From Ascidia mentula (Eukaryota; Chordata; Ascidiacea; Phlebobranchia; Ascidiidae), in the NCBI GenBank assembly GCA_947561715.1, contig OX387205.1, positions 625,001 to 689,000 on the forward strand: a stretch of 64,000 nt of DNA, in the 5' to 3' direction. The first letter of the stretch is position 1, and every line of letters starts with the position of its first letter. The position numbers and the translations under genes are program-made. This document shows positions 3,001 through 62,342 of this stretch, piece by piece. Below the pieces are notes generated by a model. The model saw only the letters and a list, made by a program, of their open reading frames with translations. It did no database searches and was not told the DNA's origin.

Positions 3001-3051
3001 GGTACCGTGAGCAAGCCTTCAATTCCAAGCGCTGAGATTGTGTGCAGAGAT
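1..3051 (+). other. TTN: Titin A-band super-repeat, copy 1 (11 domains, first Ig cut by window edge)
   Basis: Domain order is (Ig)-Fn-Fn-Fn-Ig-Fn-Fn-Ig-Fn-Fn-Fn. Fn3 domains show the usual P-x-P start, a W near residue 20, the PxxDGG turn and Y-x-FRV near the end. Ig domains show the GRPTPxVxW strand and a DxGxYxLxLEN strand. As a circular permutation this equals the 11-domain C-zone super-repeat of vertebrate titin, which matches the 43-nm thick filament period. Confidence 0.85.
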
Positions 3052-15000: not shown

Positions 15001-18000
15001 TCATTGACGTAACGCATTACGTATGTAGTTGCTCGGTGTGTAACTATTGTGTTGTTAACCCTCCAGGTACAAGGACAACTTGAAGTTGGACGATGAAGAT
15101 AAATACGAGTTCTCTTACGACCAACACACTTGCGCTGCTTCGCTTTACGTGAAGGGAGTAGTGAAATCGGATGATGGAAGCTACAAATGCCGAGTGGAGA
15201 ACGCCTTCGGAGTCAACACACAGACGTGCGAAGTTTGTGTGGAACTGAAAACAAGGTAATAACTCTTTAAATCTGGAATCAGCGTTGACTCGTGGCGTTG
15301 AGAATTAGATTACTCCGTACTACCGCCAATATGTCGACAATTAAAGTTATTGTGAATTCAGGGAATGGACGCGCACTCGTCGAAGCATCTACGTCAACAA
15401 ACACAAGAAGAGAGGAAAGAGAAGCGGAGGAGACATCTCAAGGATCATGAAATGTCCTCCTGAATTCACTCTTCCTCTCTACAACAGGAGTGTGTACGTT
15501 GGCGATGCTGCAATCTTCACCATCACCGGTAAGCATCTCTTCCATGTCTTGTTATCACCACAAGCTGGACAGCTCACAACATAACGTTGTTTATTTTCCA
15601 CACAGTGACCGTCCACCCGACCCCGGAGATTAATTGGTTCCATAACGGACAGAAGGTGAAAGCGACGGAGGAATCAAACTACATGGTCACCAAGGAGAAA
15701 GGACTTTACACTCTTCAGATCAAGAACTGTCAGACTGACGACAACGGTGACGTCATAGTGACGGCGAAGAACGCTTACGGGGAGGACGAGTGCAAAGCGA
15801 CTCTCACCGTTCAACGTAAGCACCAGAAAAAACTTGAGATAACATAGTTGAAAGCCTGATAATCTTTAAACAACATAAGGTGTCATTGTTCTGCATTCAA
15901 ACTTGATTATTTGGTTGTGCAGCTAAACCGGTAAAAGAGGATTTGAGCGTCCGGCCGATGTTCCGGAGATTGCTCGCTAACCAGGAAGTCGAAGAAGGCG
16001 ACAATGCAAGATTTGACATCCGCATCACCGGATTCCCGAAACCCGATGTAGAATGGTAAGCAACATATTTATACCTAAGCAACATGTATCCATTTACATG
16101 TTGAAAATGGGTGTAACATAAAGCAAAGTTGAGACTATTTAACCTTTGTCACCTAATTAGAATCACGCACTGACAGTTTCTTTTAAATCAACAGGGAAAA
16201 GGATGGCAAGCCGATTCACTCCGATCACCACCACGATATCGAATGGGAAGACAAACATTCGTGTTATCTTCTCATCCGGGATACCTTCCAACAGGACAGC
16301 GGTCAGTACAAGGTCACCGCCAAGAACTCAGCTGGAACTGCCAGTTGCCAGGCGACCCTGCAAGTGCAACCTCTGGCGTACAGAAAACGCAAGAAGTAAG
16401 TTTTAGTTGTAGTTACTTGTACGGCATAGAACTTTACTTAATTTGGAAAGGAAATTAATCATATAAGTACTTGATTGACCTTCTAACATATTTGTTTTGT
16501 GTAGGCCGCAACAAGATGCCGATCTGTTCGCTCGTGAGAAGGCTTACAAGATGGCGGATCGACTCTCCATGCTCCAGGGTGATGCAGTTGATGTAAGGAT
16601 GAACGCTTCTGCGAAGGAAGCTCTCCTCACTGCTTCCACTCAAAGCTCTTTCTTCCGCCAACCAATGACCGACGATGAGGAAAAGCAGGAAAAAGAGGAA
16701 AGAAAACAAGCGAAGAAGCGGGATCTTAACCTCCGGATGCCGTACTCTGTCCCGGAACCAATCCAGCGATCCAAGAAAGTCCTCAAGGAAGACATGGCTC
16801 TGAAGAGTTTCGTCCCTCTGAGCGACTTCAAGTGGTACAAGAAGGTCCAACAATCCAATGAGGTTTACGAACCAACTGACATCGGTCGTGATGAGCGACG
16901 AAGCCGAAGACTGAAGCGACAATTTGTTCCTGATGTTGCGTACATTGTTCCCGACAAACGATATGGATCTACTTCCAAGTAAGTATCGTAAACATTCCTT
17001 TATTTTTGAAGTCGATATCACAAATGACTGGATAAGTTTGTAACCAAACTTCTTTTTAAAGGCGGGATATGCAAATGCGAACCATCGATGACGTACTTGG
17101 TGATGATTACATGACACAGAAGAGAGACGAAAGTCCAGCATATGAAGAACAGGAGATCACCTTCCAAAGAAGAGGACGCACTCCTCCTCGTAGACGCATG
17201 AGCCCAAGACCATTCAAACAACCAAAGTGGCAGCAGTTCTACAAGCCGATGAACGATGACGACCAGGTAACTTGAACTCCCGTGTATGAATGTAATAAGA
17301 TGCTGTATAATATTCTTGCTTGTTCGGCGTATCGCGTTAAAGATAGGAAGTTAATGTTGAACATCTTTAGGTTCTGCGACCGGTTGCTGATTACCTGGAG
17401 GATGCGTCCGCCAAGGAATACATTCAGGAGATGCAGACGAGAGGCATTGAAGAGCACTCTAGCGGGTTGACAAGTTACGCTGATCTCCTTCGACAACAAC
17501 GGGAGTCCAGTTATGCGATGGGAGAAGTGGAAGAAAAATATGAGTACCAACCTGTTAAAGTTCCCAAGAAGATCGACGCATCCCCATCATTCCTCTCACT
17601 CCGGGAGCGACATGATCAAGCTCTTGCATCCAAGAAGTATTCAACGTAAGTAGAGAATTTAAACTCAAAACAAACCTCCTTTCAATTGATTTAATCTCAA
17701 TCTTCTCCTCATTTCAGAACGGAAGAAACTTATATGAAACCTGAATCTGACGACGATATTCTGCGTCCTATCTCGTTGGATGCTTGGAAGTACGAACAAG
17801 TAAAGCGTGACCAAGCTTCCACCTCCAAAGCGGTCGCTAGCCGACGCCCGAGATCACTATCATCGTCTTCCTCCGAAAGCGAAGGAGAGAAAGAGTACAG
17901 GAAGAAGAGACAAGAGCGGGAGAGACGTCGTCAGGAGGATTACTCCGTAGAGAGGGAGGAGCATGAGAGCAGAGAGTCATCCAAACGCCGGGAATCTCGC

Positions 18001-21000
18001 AGGAAAATTGTTGAGGAAGATCCAGATTACATGAGAAAGTTGAGAAGAAGAAGGTAGGTTGAAACTGTTTCCACAAACTGTAACTTTCGATTCTGTTGAA
18101 AGATTAAAACTTACTATGAATGCACGTGATTTCCACTTACCAATATTCTCCCTTCAGGTCGTTTGAATACGAAGAACTGATGCGACCAATTTCGGAAGTT
18201 GCGCTCCAGAAGCGAAGAAGAAGACCTGTTTCTTCATCTTCCTCGGATAGCACCAGCAGTGATGATGAGGAATATCGAAGACAGCAGAGACAACTGCGCA
18301 AATCTCGAAGATCTCGGTAAGAATTAATTCAATTGGAACGACTTGTTTGCAAACCTCCACGGGCTCCTGGTTAACCATTGTTTCTGAACGCAGTCGTCGT
18401 TACGATGAGTACGAAGAGGATTTGTCTTCCGGGATCGAGTTCACCAGCTCCAAACTCAAACACGAGTCGAGTTACGGAGGAGTTTCGAAAAGCGCCGCCG
18501 ACTACGTTCCCACTTTCCAGTTGCGCATGAGATCACACGTCGTTCCTGAGGGAATGAGCACCAAACTGAGTGCGTACGTGCGCGGTAGACCAGAACCGAA
18601 GATCACGTGGTACCGAAACGGCACCGAACTGTCGCAAGGTGGCAGCAAATACTACATCAGCAACATCGGAGGTAAACATTTTACTTGAAAGACATACATT
18701 TTTATGCCCTAATATATCACCTGTTCATTGATTTAATTTGTGACGTATGACTTACAGGTGTGACGTCACTGGAGATAGTGCGTTGTCACGAGGGAGACAG
18801 TGGAACTTACAGATGCTCAGCTCGGAATTCCATGGGTGAAGTATCGGATTACGCAACACTTGAAGTAACAGGATCCGAGTTCGAGTCGAGCGCATCCAAG
18901 CGTGGAGTCGATCATTTCCACATGACTATGGATAGAGTTGATGCAAGAACAGCTCTTTCCAGGTAAAACTTGTGTAAAAAGAATAGAGCAAATAGTGTAA
19001 AACAGTTTATTTACCGTATAGCTTTCTGTGTTTTATTTGCAAATTCGAATTTGCAGAAACTGAGGATGCCAGTTCAGGCGAAATCGATTTTTTACTAATA
19101 TATCAGCTGACTCAATTCGAAACTTCTGCTAGTTTCATTGAATTCTTAGTGTAAAACAGTTTGCAGTAATTTCCCCGTATGTTTTTCTATGAGCAGTGTT
19201 ATGTTTCGAATATTCTGATTAGTTTGTTTGTAACCAACGTAATTACTTTGCAGATCACAAATCGACACAACCACGGAGCGTGATTTCTATTCGCGGGCAT
19301 CTGTGCAGTCTGAAGGTCAAGCACTTTCACGAACCTCAACTTACAGTGAATATGGAACGGAAAGTCGCATGGGAACAACTACACCATCATCAGTATCCGG
19401 TTCTCCATACTTCGTCATACAACCTAAGAGCCAGTATGCGATGGAAGGAGACAATGCGATCTTCACTGCACAGTGCGATGGAAAACCATCACCTAAAGGT
19501 TCGTCAACATTTATTTTAAAGATTTTCAACTTTGCACGTGAACATCGAATCGTTTGTAGTTTTTGCCAAATAGACATTTTACACCATGTAAGTTACTAAG
19601 AAATCAGACCGTTTGTTCAAAGTAAATGATTTTCCTTAATTAACTTTGTATTTCACTCGACAGTTTTGTGGTATTTGAACGACCGTCAATTGCGCGAAAA
19701 CGACAAATACACACTTGGAGCATCACGAGGCAAGCGAACGCTCGAAGTGAGAAACTGTTCCGTGGCCGACATCGGACAATACAGATGTGTCGCTGAATCC
19801 AGCAAAGGATCCGCGGTGTCCGACTTCACACTGGATGTGACGCCTCGCAGGCGCCCTCTATCGACGGCTGCGTCAGCGTATGAACGTACCGCTCCTCCGA
19901 TGAAGCTCGGCCGACAAGCGAGAGGACCCGTCGTGGTTGGTCAACTCCACGTTGAACTTCGTCTCGACGGAACTGTCCACCTCGAGTGCAGCCTCTCAAA
20001 GTCTGATGACGTCACTCGCGTCACATGGCGCAAAGACGGAGTTCCAGTTCGGTGAGTTTGACGTCACAATTATGTCAAGATATTGTGAAACTGTGCTTAG
20101 TAGTGAAACTAGATGTCTTAATTTAAAGGTTTAATTCGAGTTACTTTGGTTCATCTTGCATAAGTTATAAAATGTATGACGTAATTTCTGCAGAACATCA
20201 AGCGAGAGGATCAGAGAGACCAACTTCGGTTGCTCCTACGCTCTAATCATCCACGAGCTTCGAGAAGAAGATTCTGGATCGTATGAGTGCGAATTTACCG
20301 GAATCAACGGAGTCACTTCTACTACAACCTGCACCATGTCACGCGAATCTTGCGCTAGCATGCGGAAAAAGGTTTCCAAGCTTGCAGGCGCAAGTGGGCG
20401 TTCCAGCGCATCGCCCATGAGTGGGTTGATGCAGCACATGGAACAATCAATGCAGCAAACATCAAAAATCACATCATTCTCATCGGATAGCCGAGGCTCG
20501 TCTGTGACATCAGGAAGAGGTAAATACATTTTTGTCAGACGATCGTTTGTTCAGCTTGGAATATTCGCTAATGTATTTCTTGTACGTTTTCAGCACCGCC
20601 GACGAAAATCGAAGCTCTTCCTGGATCGGTTTCTGTCACTTCAGGAAAAGTTCTTACTCTGACCACTGCTCTATCTGGTCAAGGACCATGCGTAGCCGTT
20701 TGGTTCCACAACGGAATGACTTTAAGGTAGGAATAATTAACTTATACCTGAAAACAGATAAACAGATAATACTAATGATAAAATCCTGCCCCTCTGTCAA
20801 CCTGATGTGATTCTAACGTGGGCTGAGAACATTTATTAAAACCTGTTTTTATTCTCGCAGTGACGGTGACGACAGCGGAAGAATCCGACTTGAAAGCACG
20901 GATTCCTCAACAACTCTTACAATTCTCGGTGCCAAATCATCAGATGCCGGAAAATACAGACTTGAAGTTGCAAGTCCTAAAGGCTCAGACTCCGCCACTA

Positions 21001-29675: not shown

Positions 29676-35064
<5,389 letters not shown>

Positions 35065-35375
35065 GTTGAAAGTTTGACGTTTTCACCAAAACATGTATCT
35101 CAGTGTGCATCAGGTAGACATTTTTTATCAAAAGGACCTAAAACACTACAAATACCTGTAACAGTGGAAACTAAAAATAGGCTACATTTTAAATTTAATC
35201 AAATTTATATATTTTATAATATAAGGTGAATACTATTCACATCATAGAAGCAAATTGAAAGCTATTCCTGAACTTTGAATTGAAAAACAAACACAAACAA
35301 TTCTTCAACAACCTTTCGCAACAAATGCAAAGAAACAATAAAAGTTAAAAAACACCCACACAAAAAGCGCAACTT

Positions 35376-35459
35376 TTATCCGTACCACTGCAGTACTTTT
35401 ATTTGTTCATCGAAACATCGAAGCCAGTTTACGAATGCCGACTTCTTATCAAAGGCCAT
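35376..35459 (-). CDS. Unassigned short ATG-initiated frame upstream of the Gla-RTK
   Basis: A 27-codon frame starting MAFDKKSAFVNWLRCFD lies where a first exon of the Gla-RTK could sit, but it is not a signal peptide and does not join in frame to anything I can see. A hydrophobic, Phe-rich stretch lies just downstream on the same strand (about 35302-35365) in another frame without its own ATG. Either may be chance. I do not assign a function. Confidence 0.15.
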   Translation of the reverse strand: MAFDKKSAFVNWLRCFDEQIKVLQWYG

Positions 35460-35518
35460 TTTGTTTTTAAATAACTTTATTTAATTTTGCAAATTAAACT
35501 TTACGTGAAAAAATAATC

Positions 35519-35942
35519 CCGAATTTGAGCGGTGGACGCAGAATCGTTCTTGCCCTACCATAGGGCGCAACCCTTCGTTAGATGAAGAAACGCGCGTAAA
35601 AAGCGGATGCGTTCCGCTGCTATGGGAAGTTGTCGCTGTCATGAAAACAGCGACGCAGCAAGAATTTGATGATAATAGCAAATATTCAGGCCAATACGAC
35701 GAAAGCCCTTGGCCTAGTTGTCCACGTACGGTCATCGAAAATGCAATTATTTCCCTTAAAAAGCAGTCAGGCAAGCTTGGAGTAATCCAATTGTTGACGC
35801 AAACCGCTCATGCCCGCGCCCATAATGTTATGGGCAATGGAAAAAATGTTTAGTGGTGATGCAAATACGTTGGAATGTAGCAATTATTTCCCTTGGAATT
35901 ACGCGACTCCTCACACTGGATGTGTTTGGAGTCGCGTTTTTT
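35519..35942 (+). repeat. Aberrant module 0 of the hairpin-ended repeat family
   Basis: Its start (to about 35580, including TCTTGCCCTA) matches the leader of the modules that follow. Its end is a GCGACTCC/GGAGTCGC hairpin at 35906-35939 followed by a T run, like the others. The interior is different: I see none of the rRNA-like blocks, and it has a 70-codon open frame instead. Confidence 0.6.
35641..35853 (+). CDS. Hypothetical 70-aa frame inside module 0
   Basis: ATG to TAG, 70 residues, starting MKTATQQEFDDNSKYSGQYD and containing SLKKQSGKLGVIQLL. No family recognised, no membrane segment. It occupies the interior of a repeat-like module, so it may be a captured exon or a chance frame. 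The GC content is above that of the surrounding introns. Confidence 0.25.
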   Translation: MKTATQQEFDDNSKYSGQYDESPWPSCPRTVIENAIISLKKQSGKLGVIQLLTQTAHARAHNVMGNGKNV

Positions 35943-36119
35943 TCATAAAATAAAAATCATAGGTTGTCTGTTGCCGAGGGTTGATCGATTCTAATGTTGT
36001 CAACGACCATGCAAAGATTTGTCAAGAGCAGGCGGTAGTCGAAGAGTCAGTCTTGCCCTACTATGAGAGACAACCTTCGTGTGAAGGCGTGGGCTCGGTG
36101 AATGGTTTCGAGTGGCGAT

Positions 36120-36466
36120 AATGGTGCGGATAGGTTGGAATTTTGACTGGGGCGGTGCGGCCACGAGGTGGCAGAGTATATGAAAGTAGCAAATATGTAG
36201 TAAGAGAACAAATGCCTCGTTTGGTGCAACATGCGTCAAAAGCTGTAAAAATGTATGCGAGTTGAAAAACAAATCACAGGGATAACTTGTTTTTATGTTA
36301 GCGTGGAGGTAATTATAAAACCTGATCTTGTTGATTAGGAATGCGGTAAGCGTTGTCTTATACTGAACGTGAGCTGGGTTTTGATGCGGGCAGAAAAATG
36401 CGAGTAAGAATGTAGCGTTTCGAAATTAGTGGTTGTCACGCGGATATGTGTGAGTGGGTTCTAGAA
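36120..36466 (+). rRNA. LSU rRNA domain-V-like segment, copy 1 (divergent; function unknown)
   Basis: Blocks that match conserved eukaryotic LSU core sequence, in the LSU order: TTTTGACTGGGGCGGT (36141-36156), a GAACAAATGCCTCGT stretch with CAAAAGCT after it, CACAGGGATAACTTG (36275-36289), CGGTAAGCGTTG (36344-36355), GAACGTGAGCTGGGTTTT (36365-36382). Distances between blocks are shorter than in 28S and the sequence between is diverged. The match is from memory of LSU sequences. Confidence 0.5.
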
Positions 36467-36492
36467 TTGAAATGTGTCAGTTAAGTTTATAA

Positions 36493-36535
36493 GCGACTCT
36501 GGACACTATGTTTGGTGTCTTGAGTCGCTTTTTTT
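36493..36535 (+). terminator. Hairpin plus T run ending module 1
   Basis: GCGACTC pairs with GAGTCGC, with an inner GACAC/GTGTC helix, followed by seven T. It resembles the 3' end of a Pol III transcript. In other copies the inner helix changes but still pairs. Confidence 0.5.
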
Positions 36536-36694
36536 CCTAAAAATTTTTTATGGTAGAAAAATAAAATTTGTTGAAAAGGCGTTTGTGTGAACGCAGAGTC
36601 GACAAAATTGCCGTTTTTCGACCATTCATGGTAAATTTTTCCCATTGTGTACACACAGAGTTGGTCGAATTCCGACAAAAAAAGAAAAAAAACG

Positions 36695-36840
36695 CGCGAA
36701 AACACAAAATCGAGCACATTTGATCGATCGGATGCCCACATTTCGGTTCGAAAGACGAATCTGAGATCCATCTTTCGTGTCGAGTTTTTGGCATCCGATC
36801 GACCAAAAGTGTTGATTTTGCGCCTTCGAGCGACAAGTTT
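36695..36840. repeat. Foldback in the unit 1 spacer
   Basis: An imperfect palindrome centred near 36765, with core arms GATCGATCGGATGCC and GGCATCCGATCGACC extending outward through AAAATCGAGCAC-type sequence, plus an inner CGAAAGA/TCTTTCG pair. Equivalent foldbacks lie near 38255-38415 and 39945-40105 in units 2 and 3. Confidence 0.65.
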
Positions 36841-37639
36841 TAATTTTTTTACAATGGAATTGCTGTTGCAATGCCGCAACCCTTGCATTGCTTGTCAGTC
36901 GTTCCGACCACAGGAGCAGACCGACTTATCGAAACTTGGCTTCCTCCACCAAGTGTTCGGACGGTAGGTTCGCATCCGCGTCACCCGCGACTTTGCCACA
37001 CCACTCACTATGCAACATCTCAACCAAAGCCAGGCAAAATTACATGAAAGTTTGTAACTCTTACGGTCGGCGTACAGTTGCCCCTCCACATAGGGCAGAT
37101 ATCGACTCTGTGTGTACGTTTGGTTCAGAACGCTCTAGGCAACCTTCAGACGCAAAAAAACAATGATGGCCATCATCATAGTTGTGCAATATCGACTCTG
37201 TTCGCACGTTTTGCTTCAAGTCCATGGGCGCTGCTGGCTGTCTGGAAATATCAAATTTCCCGCAATCAATCTTTACCAATAGTTTGTACGTTGTCTTTCT
37301 GTTCGATCGACAAGATCGAAACTGATCAGAATTCACTTTCTGCAAATGCAGATCAAACACCATCCGCGCATTCTCTCAATGTAGTTTAATATCGACTCTG
37401 TTCACACCGCTCGGTCCAGGTTTAAAACTTCGGCATCAGCAAATTTTCACAGAACGATGCACACTAGTATCGACCCCCTCCACAACGCGACGACTTGCCC
37501 CTTACACTAGTACAATATCGACTCTCTGTCCAACGCCACTCTACAAGAGCAGGTGGTGGTCGAAGAGTCGATCTTGCCCTACTATGAGAGACAAACTTCG
37601 CGTGAAGGCGCGGGCTCAGTGAATGGTTTCGAGTGACGA

Positions 37640-37990
37640 GAATGGTGCGGATAGGTTGGAATTTTGACTGGGGCGGTGCGTGCCACGTGGTGGCAGAGCA
37701 TATGAAAGTAGCAAATATGTAGTAAGAGAACAAATGCCTCGTTTGGTGCAGCATGCGTCAAAAGCTGCAAAAATGTATGCGAGTTGAAAAACAAATCACA
37801 GGGATAACTTGTTTTTATGTTAGCGCAGAGGGAATTATAAAACATGTTGTTGATTAGGAATACGGTAAGCGTTGTCTTGGTAGTACTGAACGTGAGCTGG
37901 GTTTTGGTGCGGGCAGAAAAATGCGAGTAAGAATGCAATGTTTCCAAATTAGTGGTTGTCACGCGGATATGTGTAAGTGGGTTCTAGAAA
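37640..37990 (+). rRNA. LSU rRNA domain-V-like segment, copy 2
   Basis: The same ordered blocks: TTTTGACTGGGGCGGT at 37662-37677, CACAGGGATAACTTG at 37797-37811, CGGTAAGCGTTG at 37863-37874, GAACGTGAGCTGGGTTTT at 37888-37905. The module ends in the hairpin at 38048-38083 and a T run. Confidence 0.5.
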
Positions 37991-38047
37991 CAAGGTAGCG
38001 GTGGTGCAAGAGGTTATTATCGAAATGTGTGTCAGTTAAGTTTATAA

Positions 38048-38090
38048 GCGACTCTGGACGCCATGTTTGGTGTCTTGAGTCGCTTTTTTT
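38048..38090 (+). terminator. Hairpin plus T run ending module 2
   Basis: Outer GCGACTC/GAGTCGC helix, inner GACGCC/GGTGTC helix that needs one G-U pair, then seven T. Compare copy 1, where the inner strand is GACACT. Confidence 0.5.
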
Positions 38091-39335
38091 CCTAAAAATT
38101 TTTTATGGTAGAAAAATAAAATTTGTTGAAAAGGCGTTTGTGTGAACGCAGAGTCGACAAAATTGCCGTTTTTCGACCATTTTTGGTAAATTTTTCCCAT
38201 TGTGTACACACAGAGTTGATCGAATTTCGACAAAAAAAGAAAAAAACGCGCGAAAACACAAAATCGAGCACATTGGTCGATCGGATGCCCACATTTCGGT
38301 TCGAATGAAGAATCTGAGGCTGATAATTCAGCTTGAGATCCATCTTTCGAGTCGAGTTTTTCGCATCCGATCGACCAAAAGTGCTGATTTTGCGCCTTCG
38401 AGCGACAAGTTTTAATTTTTCACAATGGAATTGCTGATGCGATGCCGCAACCCTTCCATTGCTTGCCAGTCGTTCCGACCACAGGAGCAGACCAACAACC
38501 GACTGATCGAAACTTGGCTTCCTCCACCAAGTGTTCGGACGGTAGGTTCGCATCCGCGTCACCCGCGACTTTGCCACACCACTCATTATGCATCATCACA
38601 TCCTATAAAATCGACTTGCTTGCTTCGCCGCGCGAAAACAAACACCACTACCACACAACACATAGTAGTGCGATATCGAATCTGCGTACACCGCTCGGTT
38701 TGCACCAACCACGCAAAACACGGCCAGGCAAAATTACATGAAAGTTTGTAACTCACACGGTCGGCGTACAGTTGCCCCTCCACATAGTGCAGATATCGAC
38801 TCTGTGTGTACGTTTGGTTCAGAACCCTCTGGGCAACCTTCAGACGCAAAAAAACAATGATGGCCATCAAACATAGCAGTGCAATATCGACTCTGTTCGC
38901 ACGTTTTGCTTCAAGTCCATGAGCGCTGCTGGCTGTCTGGAAATATCAAATTTCTCGCAATCAATCTTTACCAATAGTCTGTACGTTGGCTTTCTGTTCG
39001 ATCGACAAGATCGAAACTGATCAGAATTCACTTTCTGCAAATGCAGATCAAACACCATCCGCGCATTCTCTCAATGTAGTTTAATATCGACTCTGTTCAC
39101 ACCGCTCGGTCCAGTTTTAAAACTTCGGCATCAGCAATTTTTCACAGAACGATACACACTAGTATCGACCCCCTCCACAACGCGACGACTTGCCCCTTAC
39201 ACTAGTACAATATCGACTCTCTGTCCAACGCCACTCTACAAGAGCAAGCGGTGGTCGAAGAGTCGATCTTGCCCTACTATGAGAGACAACCTTCGTGTGA
39301 AGGCGTGGGCTCAGTGAATGGTTTCGAGTGACGAG

Positions 39336-39683
39336 TATGGTGCGGATAGGTTGGAATTTTGACTGGGGCGGTGCGTGTCACGAGGTGGCAGAGTATATGA
39401 AAGTAGCAAATATGTAGTAAGAGAACAAATGCCTCGTTTGGTGCAGCATGCGTCAAAAGCTGTAAAAATGTATGCGAGTTGAAAAACAAACCACAGGGAT
39501 AACTTGTTTTTATGTTAGCGCAGAGGGAATTATAATACCTGATGTTGATAGGAATACGGTAAGCGTTATCTTGGTAATACTGAATGTGAGCTGGGTTTTG
39601 ATGCGGGCAGAAAAATGCGAGTAAGAATGCAATGTTTCCAAATTAGTGGTTGTCACGCGGATATGTGTAAGTGGGTTCTAGAA
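39336..39683 (+). rRNA. LSU rRNA domain-V-like segment, copy 3
   Basis: TTTTGACTGGGGCGGT at 39357-39372, an ACCACAGGGATAACTTG block ending at 39506, CGGTAAGCGTT at 39557-39567 and GAATGTGAGCTGGGTTTT at 39582-39599. The one change in the last block, C to T, is not seen in the other direct copies. Confidence 0.5.
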
Positions 39684-39741
39684 TCAAGGTAGCGGTGGTG
39701 CAAGAGGTTATTATCGAAATGTGTGTCAGTTAAGTTTATAA

Positions 39742-39784
39742 GCGACTCTGGACGCCATGTTTGGTGTCTTGAGTCGCTTTTTTT
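39742..39784 (+). terminator. Hairpin plus T run ending module 3
   Basis: Same hairpin as module 2 (inner GACGCC/GGTGTC), followed by a T run. Confidence 0.5.
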
Positions 39785-40852
39785 CCTAAAAATTTTTTAT
39801 GGTAGAAAAATAAAATTTGCTGAAAAGGCGGTTGTGTGAACGCAGAGTCGACAAAATTGCCGTTTTTCGACCATTTTTGGTAATTTTTTCCCATTGTGTA
39901 AACACAGAGTTGGTCGAATTTCGACAAAAAAAGAAAAAAACGCGCGAAAACACAAAATCGAGCACATTTGGTCGATCGGATGCCCACATTTCGGTTCGAA
40001 TAACGAATCTGAGGCTGATAATTCAGCTTGAGATCCATCTTTCGAGTCGAGTTTTTGGCATCCGATCGACCAAAAGTGCTGATTTTGCGCCTTCGAGCGA
40101 CAAGTTTTAATTTTTCACAATGGAATTGCTGTTGCATTGCTTGCTAGTCGTTCCGACCACAGCAGGAGACCAACAAGCGACTTATCGAACTTGGCTTCCT
40201 CCACCAAGTGTTCGGACGGTAGGTTCGCATCCGCGTCACCCACGACTTTGCCACACCACTCACTATGCAACATCTCATCCCATCAAATCGACTTGCTTGC
40301 TTCGCCGCGCACCACGACCATACCTCTTAAGGTAGTGCGATATCGAATCTACGTACACCGCTTGGTTTGCATATAACACCCAAACCCGGCCAGGCAAAAA
40401 TCAGTGTACAATTGCCCCTCCAGATAGGGCAGATATCGACTCTGTGTGTACGTTTGGTTTGGAACCTTGTTTTGGTGACGTCACACACATGATGAGAGCA
40501 ACCTCCAGATGCAAACCACGATGGCGGCCACTGCAGGCTGTCAGGAAATATCATCTTTCCTGCGAACAATCTTTGCTCAAGTTGTACGTTGGCTTTCCGT
40601 TCGATCGACAAGAACGAAACTGATCAGAATTCGCTTTCTGCAAATGCAGATCGAACACCATCCGCGCGTTCTCTCAATGTAGTTTAATATCGACTCTGTT
40701 CACACCGCTCGGTCCAGGTTTACAAAGTTTGAACTTCACTATCGAAAACTTTTCACAGAACGATAAACACTAATATCGACCCCTTTCCCAACGCGACGAC
40801 TTGCCCCTTACACTAGTACAATATCGACTCTCTGTCCACCGCCACTCTACGC

Positions 40853-41402
40853 AAGAGCAGGCGGTGGTCGAAGAGTCGATCTTGCCCTACTATGAGAGAC
40901 AACCTTCGCGTAAAGGCGTGGGCTCAGTGAATGGTTTCGAGTGGCGAGAATGGTGTGGATAGGTTGGAATTTTGACTGGGGCGGTGCGTGCCACGAGGTG
41001 GCAGATTATATGAAAGTAGCAAATATGTAGTAAGAGAACAAATGCCTCGTTTGGTGCAGCATGCGTCAAAAGCTGTTAAAATGTATGCAAGTGGAAAAAG
41101 TGGAAAAAGTAACCACAGGGATAACTTGCTTTTATGTTAGCGTGGAGGGAATTATAATATCTGATGTTGTTGATTAGGAATACGGTAAGCGTTGTCTTGG
41201 TAATGTTGAACGTGAGCTGGGTTTTATTATGGGCGGCAAAATGCGTGCAAGAATGTAGCGTTTCTATATTAAAGGTTGCCACGTGGATATTTTAAAGTGG
41301 GTTGTATTGAAAGACAGTGGTCGAATACCTGCTTGGATAGTTTCCTGTAGTCCCGATAAGCGACTCTCGGCACCATGTTTGGTGTCTTGAGTCGCTTTTT
41401 TT
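40853..41402 (+). repeat. Tandem repeat unit 4, module only (no spacer)
   Basis: Leader, rRNA-like segment (TTTTGACTGGGGCGGT 40970-40985, CACAGGGATAACTTG 41114-41128, CGGTAAGCGTTG 41183-41194, GAACGTGAGCTGGGTTTT 41208-41225) and hairpin 41360-41395 with T run. It then meets an inverted module, so the ~0.5-kb module, not the 1.6-kb unit, is the basic element. Confidence 0.8.
41360..41402 (+). terminator. Hairpin plus T run ending module 4
   Basis: Outer GCGACTC/GAGTCGC, inner GGCACC/GGTGTC with one G-U pair, then seven T. Confidence 0.5.
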
Positions 41403-41470
41403 CATCAATTTTTTTTGCCAAATGAAATTGGTCTGAAAACGTTTATTTCCGGAATTTTTAAGAAAAAAAA

Positions 41471-42000
41471 ACCGACTCTCGACACCAATGTTGGTGTCCA
41501 GAGTCGCATAGCTGACCCGAAACCTTTCAAGACAAAACTCAGGCTTCTTCTTCCTTCACCACGAATTTCTTACACTAGAAACAATTAACAGATAACAAAG
41601 TGTTCACCTTCAACTTTTGAAACGCAACATCCTTACTCGCATTTTTCTGCCCACATCAAAACCCAGCTCACGTTCAGTATTACCAAGACAACGCTTACCG
41701 TATTCCTAATCAACAACATATTTTATAATTTCCTCCGCGCTAACATAAAAACAAGTTATCCCTGTGGTTTGTTTTTCAACTCGCATACATTTTTACAGCT
41801 TTCGACGCATGCTGCACCAAACGAGGCATTTGTTCTCTTACTACATATTTGCTACTTTCGTATGCTCTGCCACCTCGTGGCACGCACCTATAAGCATCAT
41901 TTTCGCCACTCGAAACCATTTACTGAGCCCACGCCTTCACACGAAGGTTGTCTCTCATAGTAGGGCAAGATCGACTCTTTGACCACCGCCTGGCCTGTGT
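41471..42000 (-). repeat. Inverted module 5, tail-to-tail with module 4
   Basis: On the minus strand this runs from the leader near 42000 through the rRNA-like blocks (last block complement at 41658-41675, CACAGGGATAACTTG complement at 41752-41766) to its own hairpin at 41472-41506 and a run of T on that strand. The first rRNA-like block is missing in this copy. Modules 4 and 5 converge with about 70 bp between their T runs. Confidence 0.75.
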
Positions 42001-43010
42001 ACAGTGGGCGGTATACAAAGAGTCGATTCAGAATTATTGTTAGGGGCAAGTCGGCACGTTGCAAGGAGGTCGATAATAGTCCGCGAGTATCCCGAAACTA
42101 TCATTGGACAATTTCCACCCTTCTTGGTAGGAGCGAGTGGAGTGAACAGAGTCGATCCTGGGGTTTTGTGAGAGGACTGACGCACTAGCGGATGGGCGTA
42201 AACAGTGTGGGTCAGTTTCGGTCATGACTATTTGTTGGAAATCTGATGTAGACGATGTTGCTTTACAGCAACGTACACACAGAGTCGATATCATCCTCAC
42301 ACTAAGGGGCGCGTCTGTGTTATCGGTTCGAACCTGGTAGTGTTTTTTGCGTGGTTGGTGCAAACCGAGCGGTGTACGCAGATTCGATATCGCACTACTA
42401 TGAGTAGGGTGGTAGTGGTGTTTGTTTTCACGCAAGCAAGTTAATTTTCTGTGGTCGGATCGATATTGGCTGGAAAAACATCTCTCCGTATTTCCGCCTG
42501 TTGTGTGAACACAGAGTCGGTCGAATTCTGGGACAAAAAAAAACGAGCGCAAACACAAAATCCGAGCACTTTTGGTCGATTTTTCCCTCAGAATCGTCTC
42601 AAAGGATTTTTCATGCATTCAGTCCAAAAAAGTGCTAAATTTTGTGTTGTTCGCTTTTTTCTTACAATTCGCCCGACAACGGCCAAATTAGCTAAACTTT
42701 GCCCTCCAGGGAAAATCGTTCCGACCACAGGAGCAGACCAACAACCGACTTATCGAAACCGCCACCAAGTGTTCGGACGGTAGGTTCGCATCCGCGTCAC
42801 CCGCGACTTTGCCACACCACTCACTATGCAACATCTCATCCCATCAAATCGACTTGCTTGCTTCGCCGCGCGATAACAAACACCACTACCACCCTACACA
42901 TAGTAGTGCGATATCGATTCTGCGTACACCGCTCGGTTTGCACCAACCAAGCAAAACACAGCCAGGTTCGAGACGAAGACCTTCGTATGAGAATGGTATC
43001 GGCTGATCAA
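42001..43010. repeat. Rearranged spacer pieces of the tandem repeat
   Basis: A mosaic of spacer fragments: inverted pieces to about 42440 (boxes near 42020, 42150, 42280, 42385) and direct pieces to about 43010 (foldback-flanking sequence near 42500-42660, box near 42910). Beyond 43010 the similarity stops. Confidence 0.6.
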
Positions 43011-44130
43011 CGGGCGTTTCCATCGAGCGGTTTCTGGGCATGATGAACGTGTTCAACGGGCGTACAATGTTTTGGAGCCAAACTTACGCCACTTCTTTAA
43101 ACGGCCATCAACTCTCATGTTTCCGCTAAGCCAATTCTCTCTCACCTTCTACCCTCCCTGTGAATGTGTTAGCACCAGGGTTGTAGTGCAGTACCAACAC
43201 GCTTCTACAATTGGTTGAGTTTCGACCAGAAGATTCCTTGCGTGGAAACGACACACTAACAAATCTCTCCTCTTTTTGTTGTTTGTGTGTTGATTATTTG
43301 AAGTTATACGAACACATCGCATCGCATTATTCTTTAGTTTCAATCGGTTTTCCGCAATCACGTTTCATCAAATTCCCCTTTTGGTTTACATTTATTTTCT
43401 TGTTGATTGTTTGCCACGTAACGTAACGCCCCAGTGATTACGCTGCTCGTTGATTGGTTAATTGGTTTGTGGAGTAGGCGGCTAAAACGAGAATGACCAT
43501 TAGTTTTGTTGTGGACGTCATGCTGTATGTAGTGATTGGAGGAGGGCGTTGGACCGTTCAATAGGTTATTTAACACGAAGTCGGTGTTCTGGACAACAAC
43601 CATAACTGGGACACAATTAATTTCGTACTCGTTGAAATATAACCGAACTGAGTCATCTGCAGGAAGCAGTGTTAAAAACAGAACCTTAGCTTCTACGTAG
43701 ATCTCAATGTTAACCAGATATACATTTCGGAGTAATTGGATCCACATTTATTTATCTTTTTTTTAAATCATGTTGAGCTTTAAACATAGTCGCTTGGTCA
43801 CAACAAGTGGTAGTAGTCAGGGCGCAAGGCTATTTTTCACCATAGGCAAGGTTTGAATGCTTCGCTGTATTGCGCCCCATTTCACTTTTATAAGCCATGA
43901 TTAATTTAAAATTATGAAAATCTCTGCGATACATAACACAAATTCTTTCATGTCACTGTAGTTGATGAACTGTTGCCAACCGGTAATTAATGAGGCAAGT
44001 TCTGCGCTCTAGGCGACTTGCAATGACCAATGGGTCCACCGGTATTGGCGGTGTTGGTCACGACGAAACCTTTTTATATTCAATATAGTTCTGGATGGGA
44101 ACCAAGTGTTTTTCGGTTGTGTCGAGTGTT
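43011..44130. other. Intergenic; one hypothetical minus-strand frame at 43358-43747
   Basis: The minus strand has an open frame of about 130 codons at 43358-43747 whose first part reads like protein (ADDSVRLYFNEYEINCVPVM), but I recognise no family and see no partner exon. The stretch nearest 44130 is the 3' flank of cupin gene A and is similar to the 3' flank of gene B at 47440-47504. Confidence 0.25.
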
Positions 44131-45974
44131 TTAGGTTGGCGTCATATCAAGTATGACCTCCTTGTGTTGGGGGTAGAGTTTCAACAGTTGATCACGGGTC
44201 GAAAGTTCGAAATCGTCGTATTCGAATCCAGGACACACTGTGTTCGTCACCAGAGCGTAACCATTCGAAGAAGGATCTTTCAAACGAATCGCGTAAAAAC
44301 TTTCTACAATAAAACAAAGAAGATCAGGGTTTTGAGTTGGCATGAAGAATATGTAATGTATAACGGTTCCACAATTACATTGTGATTGTTAGTTTAGAGT
44401 TAAACTTGCATTGTTTTCTACAGGTGTTTACCGTTTGGTTTGTAACAAAACTTAACATGCCGAAAGCAGTACAACAATTAAGATGCAAATTCCTGAAAAC
44501 CTTTACAGGACACAGCGCAACTTTTGCCATAGTTGCCAAAGCTGAGAATTTATAAAATTTAAAATAAAAGTTATGCAACTTTTCAAACGCATCTGTATTC
44601 ATCATTAAAAGTTGTATTTGAAACTTCTACATTTCTGTTGCATTTAGAAATGTCTTAGCTTAGGCATTTATATTAAATTCCAGTATTTTTATCGTGTGCA
44701 TCACGAGACGAAGCAAATATTTTTTTCCTAATGAGGCTTGGTGTGTTTGGGTTGAAACATAATTCGTTCAATCGTTACAGACCTGCGGGTACTATGGTGC
44801 TGAACCTCAGCTTCTCATATTTTCCCAGGTGGTGTTTCTCCAACTCTCCCGTATGTTTGTTTATGATGAAAATTGTTACTGGACCTCCGTCCACCAGATT
44901 CCAAATCTCATCACTTTTCAGTCGGTGAAACTGCGCAGTTTCATTTGCCTTCGTGTAGAAAAAGTTGATATCAGGAAAACATTACAGAAAACAGAGCTTC
45001 TACTTTGCTTTGTGGTGAATATCTTATGGAGTGTTACTTTCAACTTTCAATATCAATCTAAGTGAGTTTGATGTCAGTCAAGGCGTACTAACGAGGTTTA
45101 CTTAATTTCTGGGGCGCAGTGGCGAAATTTATTCAAAACATTTTATGAAGATTTTAACCGACTTTAAATTTTTTAATACCTTCAACAAGAAATAGATGTG
45201 GGTCCCAAACGACCTGACAGCTTTGTCGCCGTAAACTTTAGGAAGACGGTCATAATATTTTTCATTCTTGTAAAACTCCCTGTAGCTTCCACCCTCCGGA
45301 TGCTGCGAGAGGTTCAACTCTCTGGTCCAATAATCCCCATCCTACAATAAAACAACAACTAAAACTTGAATTACAAGATTTCAGACATTGTGATTTTCCC
45401 CGTATGTAGTTTTCTACACTAGAAAACTGGCACTGTTGCGCGGGAGTGTTGCTGTGCGCAAGGTCTGGGACGACTAATTAAGCTTTAACAATAAGAAGAT
45501 TTTAACTTTGGCCTGATTTCAGTTGTCCCATTGGAAAACAGTTGCTGTTACGTGACGTTGACAGCTACATTAGTTCTTTCTGCAATCAAGGTCACAGCTG
45601 TTCACATTTGTTGACCTTTATTGGAACTCTGGACATCTATTAAGAGCAATGAATGCTGCACGGTTCTTAGCTTTCAATAAACTCAATTACTTATTTAAAA
45701 TAATTGAATTGTTGAAGCGACGATTTTACAAAATTTCATAAACAAAATCTGAAATAGATCGAGGATAAAAATTTTAAAATGCCTCCAGGCAAAAACCACT
45801 CACAATCCTGCTGTCGCAATCTCCATGTTTGGAACTCGGTTGCTTGCGCCTCATAAAATACAATATCACCAGTAATGTCATTAAAGCCAGAAACACCTCC
45901 ACTGTGTAATGGGATGTGGTCCCACAGTGGTAGACGAAAACACCAAGACTGAAACTAACCAATAAGTCCAACAT
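44131..45974 (-). CDS. Membrane-anchored Cupin_5 (DUF985) protein, gene A
   Basis: Four coding exons, 45804-45974, 45180-45341, 44783-44948 and 44131-44303, give 223 aa in frame. Residues 1-45 form hydrophobic membrane segments (MLDLLVSFSLGVFVYH; LALMTLLVILYF) followed by RRKQPSSK, an N-terminal anchor. The remainder is a small beta-barrel of the Cupin_5 family: LSQHPEGGSYREFY, HIYFLLK, FHRLKSDEIWNLVDG, STIVPAESFYA, and VCPGFEYDDFEL. The reaction of this family is unknown to me. A 5' UTR exon ending at 46047 with a 50-bp intron (GTAAGT donor; acceptor before 45995) is suggested by strong conservation with gene B. Gene B is a close duplicate with identical exon lengths. Confidence 0.85.
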
Positions 45975-59449: not shown

Positions 59450-61195
59450 CGCCTGGTTTTGCGATTCAGCATAATGGCGGCATGCAAAAAACTTCCCTAA
59501 TACAAAGAATTCTGCTCGGCGTTCTTGCAATAGGTGCCAATATTGACCAACATCACGAGAACGGAAATTTAATGCTCTACCACATGCAATTAACAAATTT
59601 GAAATTAAGGTGCCGGATGATCTTCAAATCGCCCATCGAAGACGACCCGCTTTTTTGCGAATCAGCAGCATAATGGCGTATTGTCGGCATGCGAAAAACT
59701 TCCCTATTAAAACAATTCTGCTCGGCGTTCTTGCAATAGGTGCCAATATTGACCAACATCACGAGAACGGAAATTTAATGCTCTACCACATGCAATTAAC
59801 AAATTTGAAATTAAGGTGCCGGATGACCTTCAAATCGCCCATCGAAGACGACCCGCTTTTTTGCGAATCAGCAGCATAATGGCGTATTGTCGGCATGCGA
59901 AAAACTTCCCTATTAAAACAATTCTGCTCGGCGTTCCTGCAATAGGTGCCAATATTGACCAACATCACGAGAACGGAAATTTAATGCTCTACCACATGCA
60001 ATTAACAAATTTGAAATTAAGGTGCCGGATGACCTTCAAATCGCCCATCGAAGACGACCCGCTTTTTTGCGAATCAGCAGCATAATGGCGTATTGTCGGC
60101 ATGCGAAAAACTTCCCTATTAAAACAATTCTGCTCGGCGTTCTTGCAATAGGTGCCAATATTGACCAACATCACGAGAACGGAAATTTAATGCTCTACCA
60201 CATGCAATTAACAAATTTGAAATTAAGGTGCCGGATGACCTTCAAATCGCCCATCGAAGACGACCCGCTTTTTTGCGAATCAGCAGCATAATGGCGTATT
60301 GTCGGCATGCGAAAAACTTCCCTATTAAAACAATTCTGCTCGGCGTTCTTGCAATAGGTGCCAATATTGACCAACATCACGAGAACGGAAATTTAATGCT
60401 CTACCACATGCAATTAACAAATTTGAAATTAAGGTGCCGGATGACCTTCAAATCGCCCATCGAAGACGACCCGCTTTTTTGCGAATCAGCAGCATAATGG
60501 CGTATTGTCGGCATGCGAAAAACTTCCCTATTAAAACAATTCTGCTCGGCGTTCTTGCAATAGGTGCCAATATTGACCAACATCACGAGAACGGAAATTT
60601 AATGCTCTACCACATGCAATTAACAAATTTGAAATTAAGGTGCCGGATGACCTTCAAATCGCCCATCGAAGACGACCCGCTTTTTTGCGAATCAGCAGCA
60701 TAATGGCGTATTGTCGGCATGCGAAAAACTTCCCTATTAAAACAATTCTGCTCGGCGTTCTTGCAATAGGTGCCAATATTGACCAACATCACGAGAACGG
60801 AAATTTAATGCTCTACCACATGCAATTAACAAATTTGAAATTAAGGTGCCGGATGACCTTCAAATCGCCCATCGAAGACGACCCGCTTTTTTGCGAATCA
60901 GCAGCATAATGGCGTATTGTCGGCATGCGAAAAACTTCCCTATTAAAACAATTCTGCTCGGCGTTCCTGCAATAGGTGCCAATATTGACCAACATCACGA
61001 GAACGGAAATTTAATGCTCTACCACATGCAATTAACAAATTTGAAATTAAGGTGCCGGATGACCTTCAAATCGCCCATCGAAGACGACCCGCTTTTTTGC
61101 GAATCAGCAGCATAATGGCGTATTGTCGGCATGCGAAAAACTTCCCTATTAAAACAATTCTGCTCGGCGTTCTTGCAATAGGTGCCAATATTGAC
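59450..61195 (+). repeat. 206-bp satellite array, left (about 8.4 units)
   Basis: Period 206 bp, measured from exact recurrence (for example 59610, 59816, 60022). Inner units are almost identical; the outermost (59450-59690) is diverged, as at an array edge. A variant GTTCCTGC in place of GTTCTTGC occurs at 59934 and 60964, exactly five units apart. The open frames in each unit recur only because the DNA does. Confidence 0.95.
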
Positions 61196-62337
61196 CAAAT
61201 TTGACCATATTGACCAATAAGCCTTCTAAATTTATAACTTTAGCAGTATGCAAGTACAACATGTGTTCAATCATGTACATTTGCACAAATCAGCAAACTT
61301 GGCAATAATACACAACTTTATTTGTAAAAAATTGTATTTGTTGACTTCCGGGGCCGGGCCACGTAGCAGCCTTCGACATGCTACAAAATATTGATTTGCG
61401 GACTGCAGTTTGTACACCCTTGGTGTAAACAAATACAAAACATTTTTGCTACATGTTTAGATGATGGGTTCCTTCTTACATTTCTTTTTCATGTGCTCTT
61501 TGGATAAAATGGCAACAAATTTTAGAGATATGTGACATATATAACGCTAAATACTATTTTTTCTAATACCCACAAACATATGTATTTACTGTTTATCCTG
61601 TGACATGTGTTGCATAATTGATTTCTGTGACAAAATACTGTAAAAAAAATATGCTCTATTTTCTGTGCAGGTCGTATTCAGTTCGAAAAAAAAGGAAAAG
61701 TTGAATTGTTATGGTTACTTTTGAGGAAAAAGAAAATTGAAAATGTAGTAAATTCCTGCAAATGTGTCATTGGTAGGGGAGTCAGGAGATAATAGGAGAG
61801 GGGTTAATAAAATTTTCATGTTAGGTACCACGAATCCATACGAGTTGATAAACCCTTCGGTATCTGAGATCAAATCCTAATAGAATGCAACAGTACAGTC
61901 AAACGATAACGCGTGAAATATGTCCACATCAAAGTCATTGCGTCATAAGGGACAAACAGAAAGAAAGGCAATCTTCGACCAAAACGAATTTCAAGGCCAG
62001 GACCAAACTTTATTTTAACAAAATAGGACTAAAGACCGCATGTCAGCAATTCTATTAAAATAGTTTTGCCCGCGGGGAATGCCCGTCTTGTACTCCTGCG
62101 TCATAGAGAGTCTCAGTTTCGTCACAAGGCAACCGGTGATGCATTGGGGTCAATTTTCTATTTAATGAGCAAGAAGTCACGTGGTGTAGCCAGGGCGATT
62201 TTCAGCGTGTTTGGTGCAGTTTTAGTGCAAATTTTTGCTCTTCTCAGTCAGTCAGACGTTTGGTGAAGGGTGCTGTGAAAAGTTTAGTTGAAAAACCATC
62301 AAAATGTTCAAGGGGATGAAGCACAAAATTGAATCTT
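61196..62337. other. Unique spacer between inverted satellite arrays
   Basis: About 1.1 kb of single-copy-looking, AT-rich sequence, with a golgin-like first exon at its right end. Nothing else recognised. It lies between arrays of opposite orientation. Confidence 0.6.
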
Positions 62338-62342
62338 TTATT
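62304..62342 (+). CDS. Possible golgin-like first coding exon, cut by satellite
   Basis: ATG in a good context (ATCAAAATG) begins MFKGMKHKIESFI, which resembles the short basic amphipathic start of GRIP golgins (human GOLGA4 MFKKLKQKI, GOLGA1 MFAKLKKKI, from memory). After 13 codons the sequence passes straight into satellite without a splice donor. Either the exon was truncated by the array, the assembly is wrong here, or the likeness is chance. Confidence 0.25.

Follow-up and report, generated by a model that had tools for sequence, protein, structure and literature searches.

The window (the whole 64-kb stretch of DNA analyzed here) contains, at positions 36023-41998, five ~0.53-kb modules, four direct and one inverted, which have in common a leader, blocks identical to 28S rRNA and a hairpin/T-run at the end. 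They belong to an array that, by sequence comparison, comprises at least four families of units, alike in leader and terminator style, and the set of tags (sense copies, 12-18 nt long, of conserved segments of 28S) differs from family to family. Our preferred, though tentative, explanation is that the modules are non-coding RNA genes and that selection may maintain their 28S tags as sites of binding, box C/D snoRNPs being the likeliest partner, which the RNAs would engage as mimics or decoys.

Organization of the array

Related units are found on a single contig (C73), at 0.19-1.88 Mb, the family extending far beyond positions 36023-41998; the units lie near one chromosome end, where all located copies reside. 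The analyzed set consists of 44 module copies cut out from four families (24 M, 15 F, 4 G and 1 W0), while a second W0 copy (L033, truncated, 206/215 nt identical) was found later and stands outside this set. The array is both tandem and inverted, and some copies are truncated or rearranged. The features of the window are given below, with the 28S domain numbers and names such as P-loop being those to which we take the blocks to correspond.

35520..35943, plus strand: W0 unit with leader box GCGGTGGACGCAGAATCGTTCTTGCCCTACCATAGG; 28S domain II tag at 35661-35688 (23/28 nt; exact part TAGCAAATATTCA at 35676-35688); terminator-like hairpin GCGACTCC..GGAGTCGC and T-run from 35903
36023..36545, plus strand: M module 1; tags P-loop 36141-36156, domain II 36185-36196, domain IV 36209-36220, CACAGGGATAACTTG 36275-36289, CGGTAAGCGTTG 36344-36355 and GAACGTGAGCTGGGTTTT 36365-36382; terminator-like hairpin and T7 at 36493-36537
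36694..36831: long hairpin, then T-run on the minus strand
37517..37572: palindromic double box in which AGAGTCGAT occurs twice, at 37517 (minus strand) and 37564 (plus strand)
37544..38100, plus strand: M module 2; leader word 37572, P-loop tag 37662, CACAGGGATAACTTG 37797, GAACGTGAGCTGGGTTTT 37888, hairpin 3' arm and T-run 38075
38248-38403 and 39942-40098: repeats of the minus-strand hairpin
39212/39259, 40823/40872 and 41970/42019: further double boxes of the same layout
39239..39794, plus strand: M module 3; leader word 39267, P-loop tag 39357, CACAGGGATAACTTG 39492, GAATGTGAGCTGGGTTTT 39582, hairpin 3' arm and T-run 39769
40852..41412, plus strand: M module 4; leader word 40880, P-loop tag 40970, CACAGGGATAACTTG 41114 (inside a stretch matching 28S at 25/27 nt), GAACGTGAGCTGGGTTTT 41208, hairpin 3' arm and T-run 41387
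41455..41998, minus strand: M module 5, inverted; P-loop tag removed by deletion; GAACGTGAGCTGGGTTTT 41658, CACAGGGATAACTTG 41752, leader word 41952
42547-42652: diverged repeat of the minus-strand hairpin

The blocks named in the original prediction are present where it had placed them, in the four direct modules and, without the first block, in the inverted one; its common leader, hairpin/T-run end and anatomy of separate units were likewise borne out. In each unit, a leader box (AGAGTCGAT..CTACTATGAGAG, close variants included) is followed by a body of ~0.4-0.55 kb and a hairpin/T-run end. With at most one mismatch, the leader box occurs 49 times, always on C73 (control, 0). Judging from the sequence, the box would drive transcription that stops at the T-run, the double boxes may represent divergent promoters, and the minus-strand hairpins with their T-runs would mark the ends of minus-strand units starting at the opposite box. 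The Rfam microRNA labels on these hairpins fall far below their own gathering scores. A search for known Rfam RNAs in the modules, one F locus and one G locus yielded nothing at or above the gathering score, the best sub-threshold matches being microRNA-like hairpins.

28S tags and their conservation

Exact sense runs of at least 12 nt in the 44 modules cover 137 positions of 28S in nine segments, as compared with 12 positions in one segment for the reversed and 24 positions in two segments for the antisense control, so these matches cannot be attributed to chance. When both strands of 228,502 bases, array plus flank, are counted, 28S words of at least 13 nt occur 113 times vs. 18 in the reversed control. 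The 28S reference is a composite of L060 (a eukaryotic contaminant in a bacterial assembly, not from the host genome) up to domain IV, followed by host copies L056 and L058; it does not contain the first ~330 LSU-model positions, and tags from these would therefore be missed. One of the nine segments, AAAAGTGGAAAA (ref 477), is of low complexity.

Sister families contain different 28S blocks in different orders. With leader and terminator excluded, the main word of at least 11 nt common to M and F is AAAGTAGCAAATAT from 28S domain II (11/24 M, 15/15 F), accompanied by three minor ones (ACGAAAATGTG, GTGCGTGTGTGTG and TTTTTTCCAAA, each in 1/24 M), and one domain II piece recurs in three families. 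The P-loop word TTTGACTGGGGCGGT is present in 20 of the 24 M modules and in none of the 20 others. The G tag is complete in one of four copies, and GTAAACGGCGGGA, which contains no 2'-O-methyl (Nm) site, is complete in a single F copy.

Blocks, leader and terminator are all conserved above the module body. In M, mean identity of the six blocks is 0.879 vs. 0.746 for the body (P=0.0002; P=0.0044 with one copy per cluster; P=0.005 among six divergent copies, where CACAGGGATAACTTG and CGGTAAGCGTTG, at 0.68 and 0.73, are close to the body mean of 0.669). No clear reduction in pairing was seen for the tags relative to background (0.29-0.65 vs. 0.377; alternate copies of M and F, all of G, and W0).

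This conservation bears on the possibility that 28S pieces were captured into a tandem repeat, amplified and are now decaying, the blocks owing their conservation to homogenization and chance. The tandem and inverted arrays at one chromosome end, with their truncated and rearranged copies, speak for such a satellite, as does the presence in the host of other 28S-derived repeats at no fewer than 30 places on contig C70. However, among the matches listed, 27 C70 places align continuously to 28S over ~260-300 nt at 77-81%, whereas the C73 modules lack such an alignment and have 28S-identical blocks amid unrelated sequence. Moreover, the variable position of GAACGTGAGCTGGGTTTWGA is T in 17/17 matches on C73 and A in 15/15 in the rest of the genome, so the C73 blocks are not recent rDNA copies. 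With leader and terminator conserved along with the blocks, we regard a decaying satellite as improbable, and amplified rDNA debris, one of the readings offered by the original prediction, becomes less likely, since certain blocks and not the whole are conserved.

Relation to the LSU rRNA core

The original prediction derived the modules from LSU rRNA as a compacted, colinear domain V core. Relatedness of the blocks to 28S stands, and so does the shortened block spacing (TTTTGACTGGGGCGGT to the end of GAACGTGAGCTGGGTTTT takes up 242 nt in module 1, 36141-36382, but ~346 nt at ref 2991-3336 of the composite 28S), while the compact colinear core does not. The 'CCTCGT' stretch is indeed present, as CAAATGCCTCGT preceded by AGTAGCAAATAT; the claimed LSU block order is broken, because in 28S these two words (ref 2647 and 1811) lie upstream of the P-loop word (ref 2991). 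Blocks from domains II and IV thus stand between domain V blocks in M. The Rfam LSU covariance search gave no match up to E=10 in 34000-44500, and none at the gathering score in the entire window, with the positive control L056 scoring 574 bits with the LSU model RF02543. None of the 44 modules contains GATGTCGG, a sarcin-ricin word or any of the A-loop words tried. A genome search with host 28S domains IV-V, in which 40 of 66 candidates were scored, returned at least 41 matches at E<=0.001, none of them on C73 among the matches listed. A compact LSU domain V was rejected on the missing covariance match, the absent A-loop and sarcin-ricin words and the interleaved domain II/IV blocks.

A looser version would have non-coding RNA genes from duplicated 28S now acting by an LSU-like fold (a P-loop/PTC mimic), e.g., binding ribosomal or assembly proteins, with snoRNA sites incidental, conserved rRNA often being methylated rRNA. 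The P-loop, GGGATAAC and GAACGTGAGCTGGG blocks of M follow domain V order and are conserved above the body, 28S similarity reaches 25/27 nt in one copy, and no 18S tags were found in the copies examined, all of which would suit such a fold. The lack of a covariance match and of A-loop words argues against it, as does family F, which has GAGGTGTCAGAAAA ahead of its domain II tag, so that trimming of a single colinear LSU does not account for both M and F. Two-sided change was seen in 0/73 predicted pairs, which neither supports nor refutes a module fold and is uninformative rather than contrary here. Overall, we consider a fold mimic doubtful.

That the array encodes an rRNA in scrambled fragments, of the kind known from some organelles, is hardly credible: the families do hold different LSU pieces in sense, but these are only 12-18 nt long, sarcin-ricin and A-loop words are missing, a single domain II piece is repeated in three families, and 28S exists elsewhere in the genome.

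Nm sites and snoRNA guides

A snoRNA-guided Nm site of yeast lies in seven of the eight tags, against an expectation of 3.2-3.4 for conserved runs (P=0.008 for 33 sites, 0.011 for 34, and 0.013 for runs of at least 15), in a post hoc test devised after the tags had been seen and using sites of yeast, which may not be those of the host. The tag positions correspond to yeast G805/A807, A1449/G1450, A2280/A2281, G2619, G2791/G2793, G2815 and A2946/C2948. AAAAGTGGAAAA, being outside the yeast stretch, was left out, and the yeast 25S letters used agreed at 33/33 site bases. F tags alone gave P=0.071. Guides of snoRNAs are ~10-21 nt long, and the methylated nucleotide is fixed by distance from the D box (PMC11542601, PMC5389607); in the tags, the stretch ahead of the methylated base is 7-8 nt long in three cases, which is more than a D-box guide needs.

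The list of yeast Nm sites and guides also includes Nm sites in 18S (PMC5344495). No sense 18S tag scoring at least 12 (human 18S) was found in 6/24 M, 8/15 F, 4/4 G and 1 W0; 18S-like words below this score were seen by eye in W0 and F. U24-like and snR48-like guide patterns gave 4 + 4 matches, three of the snR48 set being in 28S copies; in four of the remaining five, inspection revealed no clear U24/snR48 relative, Rfam match or clear C/D gene. In locus L070, a 12-nt guide of the U24 type is accompanied by a C-like box and CTGA, with no clear full gene and no Rfam match. The absence of 18S tags from the copies examined and the lack of a convincing host guide count against the snoRNA step, as do the mostly incomplete copies of the G tag and of GTAAACGGCGGGA. 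The modules do not resemble box C/D snoRNAs themselves, as their matches are sense, with the two antisense segments noted above (reverse-strand D boxes were judged by eye only), and no Rfam family reaches its gathering score anywhere in the window.

The tags could instead form a DNA decoy for rDNA-specific mobile elements, as copies of their target sites. CAAATGCCTCGT adjoins the R2 site, and host 28S copies L056 and L058 bear an insert in the CACAGGGATAAC tag. Nevertheless, no mobile element targeting the other tags is known to us, a target of 12-18 bp would be a short one for elements of this type, and conservation of leader and terminator would be left unexplained, making this very unlikely.

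Proposed role and comparison with known systems

Returning to the rRNA-mimic explanation, the array would be a multi-family set of small non-coding RNA genes, with each RNA running from CTACTATG to the T-run, about 0.4-0.55 kb. The tags would be kept since whatever recognizes 28S at those sites also recognizes the module RNA; box C/D snoRNPs are the most likely partner because C/D guides pair with just such stretches. The guides involved would be the counterparts of yeast snR39/39b/59, U24, snR13, snR75, snR67, snR48, snR38, snR71 and snR69; the RNAs may serve them as substrates or act as their decoys, and 28S 2'-O-methylation could be tuned in this way. In its most specific form, in which we place less confidence, this would be a chromosome-restricted natural rRNA-mimic array where each family has its own 28S methylation-site tags and titrates or recruits C/D snoRNPs, setting 28S 2'-O-methylation or acting as nucleolar hubs. 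By their sequences, the predicted RNAs look as if built to imitate rRNA to whatever binds rRNA.

If the tags are functional, they would define an RNA gene class with copies of rRNA sites rather than complements, in which several families reached different tag sets behind one leader/terminator style, and would offer a genetic handle on two questions: whether competition for snoRNPs regulates rRNA modification, and why every copy found lies at one chromosome end. No natural RNA family with copies of the rRNA sites of snoRNA guides was found in the literature searched.

Among known systems, domain V of eukaryotic LSU (RF02543) has in common with M words of 12-18 nt, exactly matching and in the same mutual order, from the P-loop, GGGATAAC and GAACGTGAGCTGGG regions; unlike it, the modules have no covariance match or A-loop/sarcin-ricin words, interleave domain II and IV words, and possess their own leader and terminator. 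The conserved box and T-run of the modules may correspond to the upstream element and T-run terminator of a Pol III type transcription unit. SINE28 elements are 28S-derived SINEs; these and the C70 repeats are also repeated sequences with 28S pieces, whereas the modules were found in a single contig region and combine several discontinuous pieces with a conserved leader and terminator. Box C/D snoRNA guides are similar in length and location of the rRNA-related stretches and opposite in sense, the modules copying the target that the guides complement. Target-mimic or sponge RNAs, such as microRNA decoys, are transcripts with copies of target sites, a property they share with the modules, in which, unlike in microRNA decoys, the sites are the rRNA sites of snoRNA guides.

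Results

The five modules of the original prediction (family M; ~0.53 kb each, window 36023–41998) are real. Each has a leader with CTACTATGAGAG and either AGAGTCGAT itself or a word close to it, then a body holding the named blocks (the first is missing from the inverted copy) and an end formed by a hairpin, GCGACTC..GAGTCGC, with GAGTCGG in the inverted copy, followed by a T-run. The direct modules recur with a period of 1.5–1.7 kb; since the spacers between them carry boxes facing the other way, as well as a long hairpin whose T-run is on the opposite strand, the repeat unit can be read as two divergent genes, the second being putative. These spacers are crowded with AGAGTCGA boxes on both strands (window 36595, 37101, 37191, 37391 and equivalents), often with a word resembling CTACTATG after the box, and 43 AGAGTCGAT words (at most one mismatch) occur within the window, some surely by chance. 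Another stretch of this genome (L036, 9386–9593) has three ~87-bp repeats head-to-tail; in each, the minus strand bears one box and one CTACTATG word.

Within the 196-Mb source assembly, a DNA search with one module yielded at least 35 matches, all on the contig of the window (C73, of which the window is 625001–689000), and the leader box (at most one mismatch) gave 49 matches, likewise only on C73, at 0.196–1.877 Mb (control, 0). Among these leader-box loci are additional families, alike in the style of leader and terminator but with different bodies; genome searches with F and G placed 19/19 and 26/26 matches, respectively, on C73. The analyzed sets comprise 24 leader-anchored M modules, two of them (1.407 and 1.409 Mb) with largely different bodies, and 15 of the 16 F units; all family copy counts are lower bounds.

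Sister families on C73, and other features of the window
C73 1.733–1.757 Mb: family F, 15 units, plus one at 1.479 Mb
C73 1.870–1.876 Mb: family G, 4 units
Window 35520–35943: family W0, with a truncated copy in L033 (another genomic stretch)
Window 5314–20662, + strand: open frames resembling, by eye, a muscle kinase gene of twitchin/titin type
Window 30565–33606, − strand: open frames, by eye like a MET-like receptor kinase
Window 59478–61198 and 62339–64000, opposite orientations: 206-bp tandem repeats, 8.3 and 8.1 copies, 99% matching

ATTCTATTTGAATAAGGT has 1830 exact matches in the genome, many of those listed lying in 720-bp tandem arrays, and ATTCTATTTGAATAAG is presumably the Ciona spliced leader. 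The Ciona SL RNA gene is reported to be multicopy (PMC6836712).

The modules may work by LSU-type folding, and the original prediction took the blocks to be in LSU order and named a colinear covariance-model hit as support. Rfam returned no LSU match in window 34000–44500, even at E=10, and across the entire window no family reached its gathering score, with a 28S stretch of this genome scoring 574 bits as positive control. The expected order is not kept either: the P-loop word of M lies ahead of the domain II and domain IV words, and F, unlike LSU, has a domain V word ahead of a domain II word. The relation to 28S takes the form of short exact sense words ("tags"), found with a composite 28S reference (a non-Ciona eukaryotic sequence, L060, up to domain IV, then L056 and L058 of this genome).

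Exact 28S sense words by family
M: TTTGACTGGGGCGGT, 20/24 copies; GAACGTGAGCTGGGTTT, 14/24; CAAATGCCTCGT, 14/24; CACAGGGATAACT, 12/24; AGTAGCAAATAT, 12/24
F: AGTAGCAAATAT, 15/15 copies; GAGGTGTCAGAAAA, 13/15
G: CCCGAAAGATG, 2/4 copies, 16 nt long in one
W0: TAGCAAATATTCA

Exact runs of 12 or more nt in 44 modules cover 137 28S positions in sense orientation; antisense runs cover 24, and runs in the reversed modules that served as control cover 12. On both strands of 228,502 bases of array and flank, 28S words of 13 or more nt occur 113 times vs. 18 in the reversed control, and such words of the 18S reference (human) 6 times. The M block CGGTAAGCGTTG (e.g., window 36344) differs from this genome's 28S (CACCAAGCGTTG, L058) but is identical to yeast 25S. 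The 28S copies in L056 (from 583) and L058 (to 365) have an insert between CACAGGGATAA and C with an apparent ATAA duplication, its 5' junction seen in L056 and its 3' junction in L058; on the L056 contig the next of the 28S words searched for lies ~3.6 kb farther on, and the insert end in L058 has a motif, GAAGACTCGTTCTTGAACTATAATAAGGG, by eye like the array leader.

Across 20 aligned M modules, identity is 0.93 in the leader, 0.91 in the terminator and 0.879 in the six blocks vs. a body mean of 0.746, a block value that random windows reach with P=0.0002; the excess holds among the six most divergent copies (P=0.005) and with one copy per cluster (P=0.0044). In those six copies (body mean 0.669), the P-loop word stands at 1.00 and GAACGTGAGCTGGGTTTT at 0.93, and CACAGGGATAACTTG (0.68) and CGGTAAGCGTTG (0.73) are not outstanding. 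Conservation of the two F tags (0.980 vs. 0.925 for the body) is suggestive only, because P=0.071. Outside leader and terminator, the words of 11 or more nt common to M and F are AAAGTAGCAAATAT, present in 28S, and three minor ones (ACGAAAATGTG, GTGCGTGTGTGTG, TTTTTTCCAAA), each in 1/24 M modules.

Discussion

We take the array to be real non-coding RNA genes, because a start/stop architecture is common to the families and certain body words are held; a literature search, with most subscription papers outside its reach, found no description of such genes. Alternatively, the array may be a plain rDNA-derived satellite. Another contig (C70) has a second 28S-derived repeat: a fragment from part of domain V at 27 places in 16.9–17.9 Mb, and at three more elsewhere on C70, among the matches listed. 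Those 27 align continuously over ~260–300 nt at 77–81% identity, unlike the modules on C73. In addition, the base following GAGCTGGGTTT is T in 17/17 matches on C73 and A in 15/15 matches elsewhere in the genome. Both observations argue against a satellite.

Within such RNA genes, the tags would most simply be bound by a partner that recognizes the corresponding places in 28S as well, because they are identical to 28S, of duplex length and different from family to family, and one of them, the U24 site, recurs in three families. Box C/D snoRNPs appear to fit best as candidate partner, although three results count against them: no 18S tags were found in the module copies compared with human 18S, no box C/D guide was identified in this genome with U24-like and snR48-like patterns, and predicted tag accessibility is unremarkable.

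Yeast 25S 2'-O-methylated (Nm) sites and their guides were taken from a published list (PMC5344495). When placed on the yeast 25S sequence, the first 33 sites tried all fell on the correct base (33/33). An Nm site lies inside 7/8 tag segments (union over all copies, within the yeast stretch), all except GTAAACGGCGGGA; random placement of segments on conserved runs would give 3.2–3.4 (P=0.008, 0.011 and 0.013, post hoc, since the idea arose after the tags were seen). The tags cover 14/33 Nm sites vs. 5.6% of all positions, or 10/26 vs. 12.2% within conserved runs only; this overlap is support rather than proof, because methylation clusters in conserved rRNA too. The first Nm site falls 7–8 nt into the tag in three tags and 2–4 nt from the tag 5' end in four, the latter as in a D-box-limited guide duplex.
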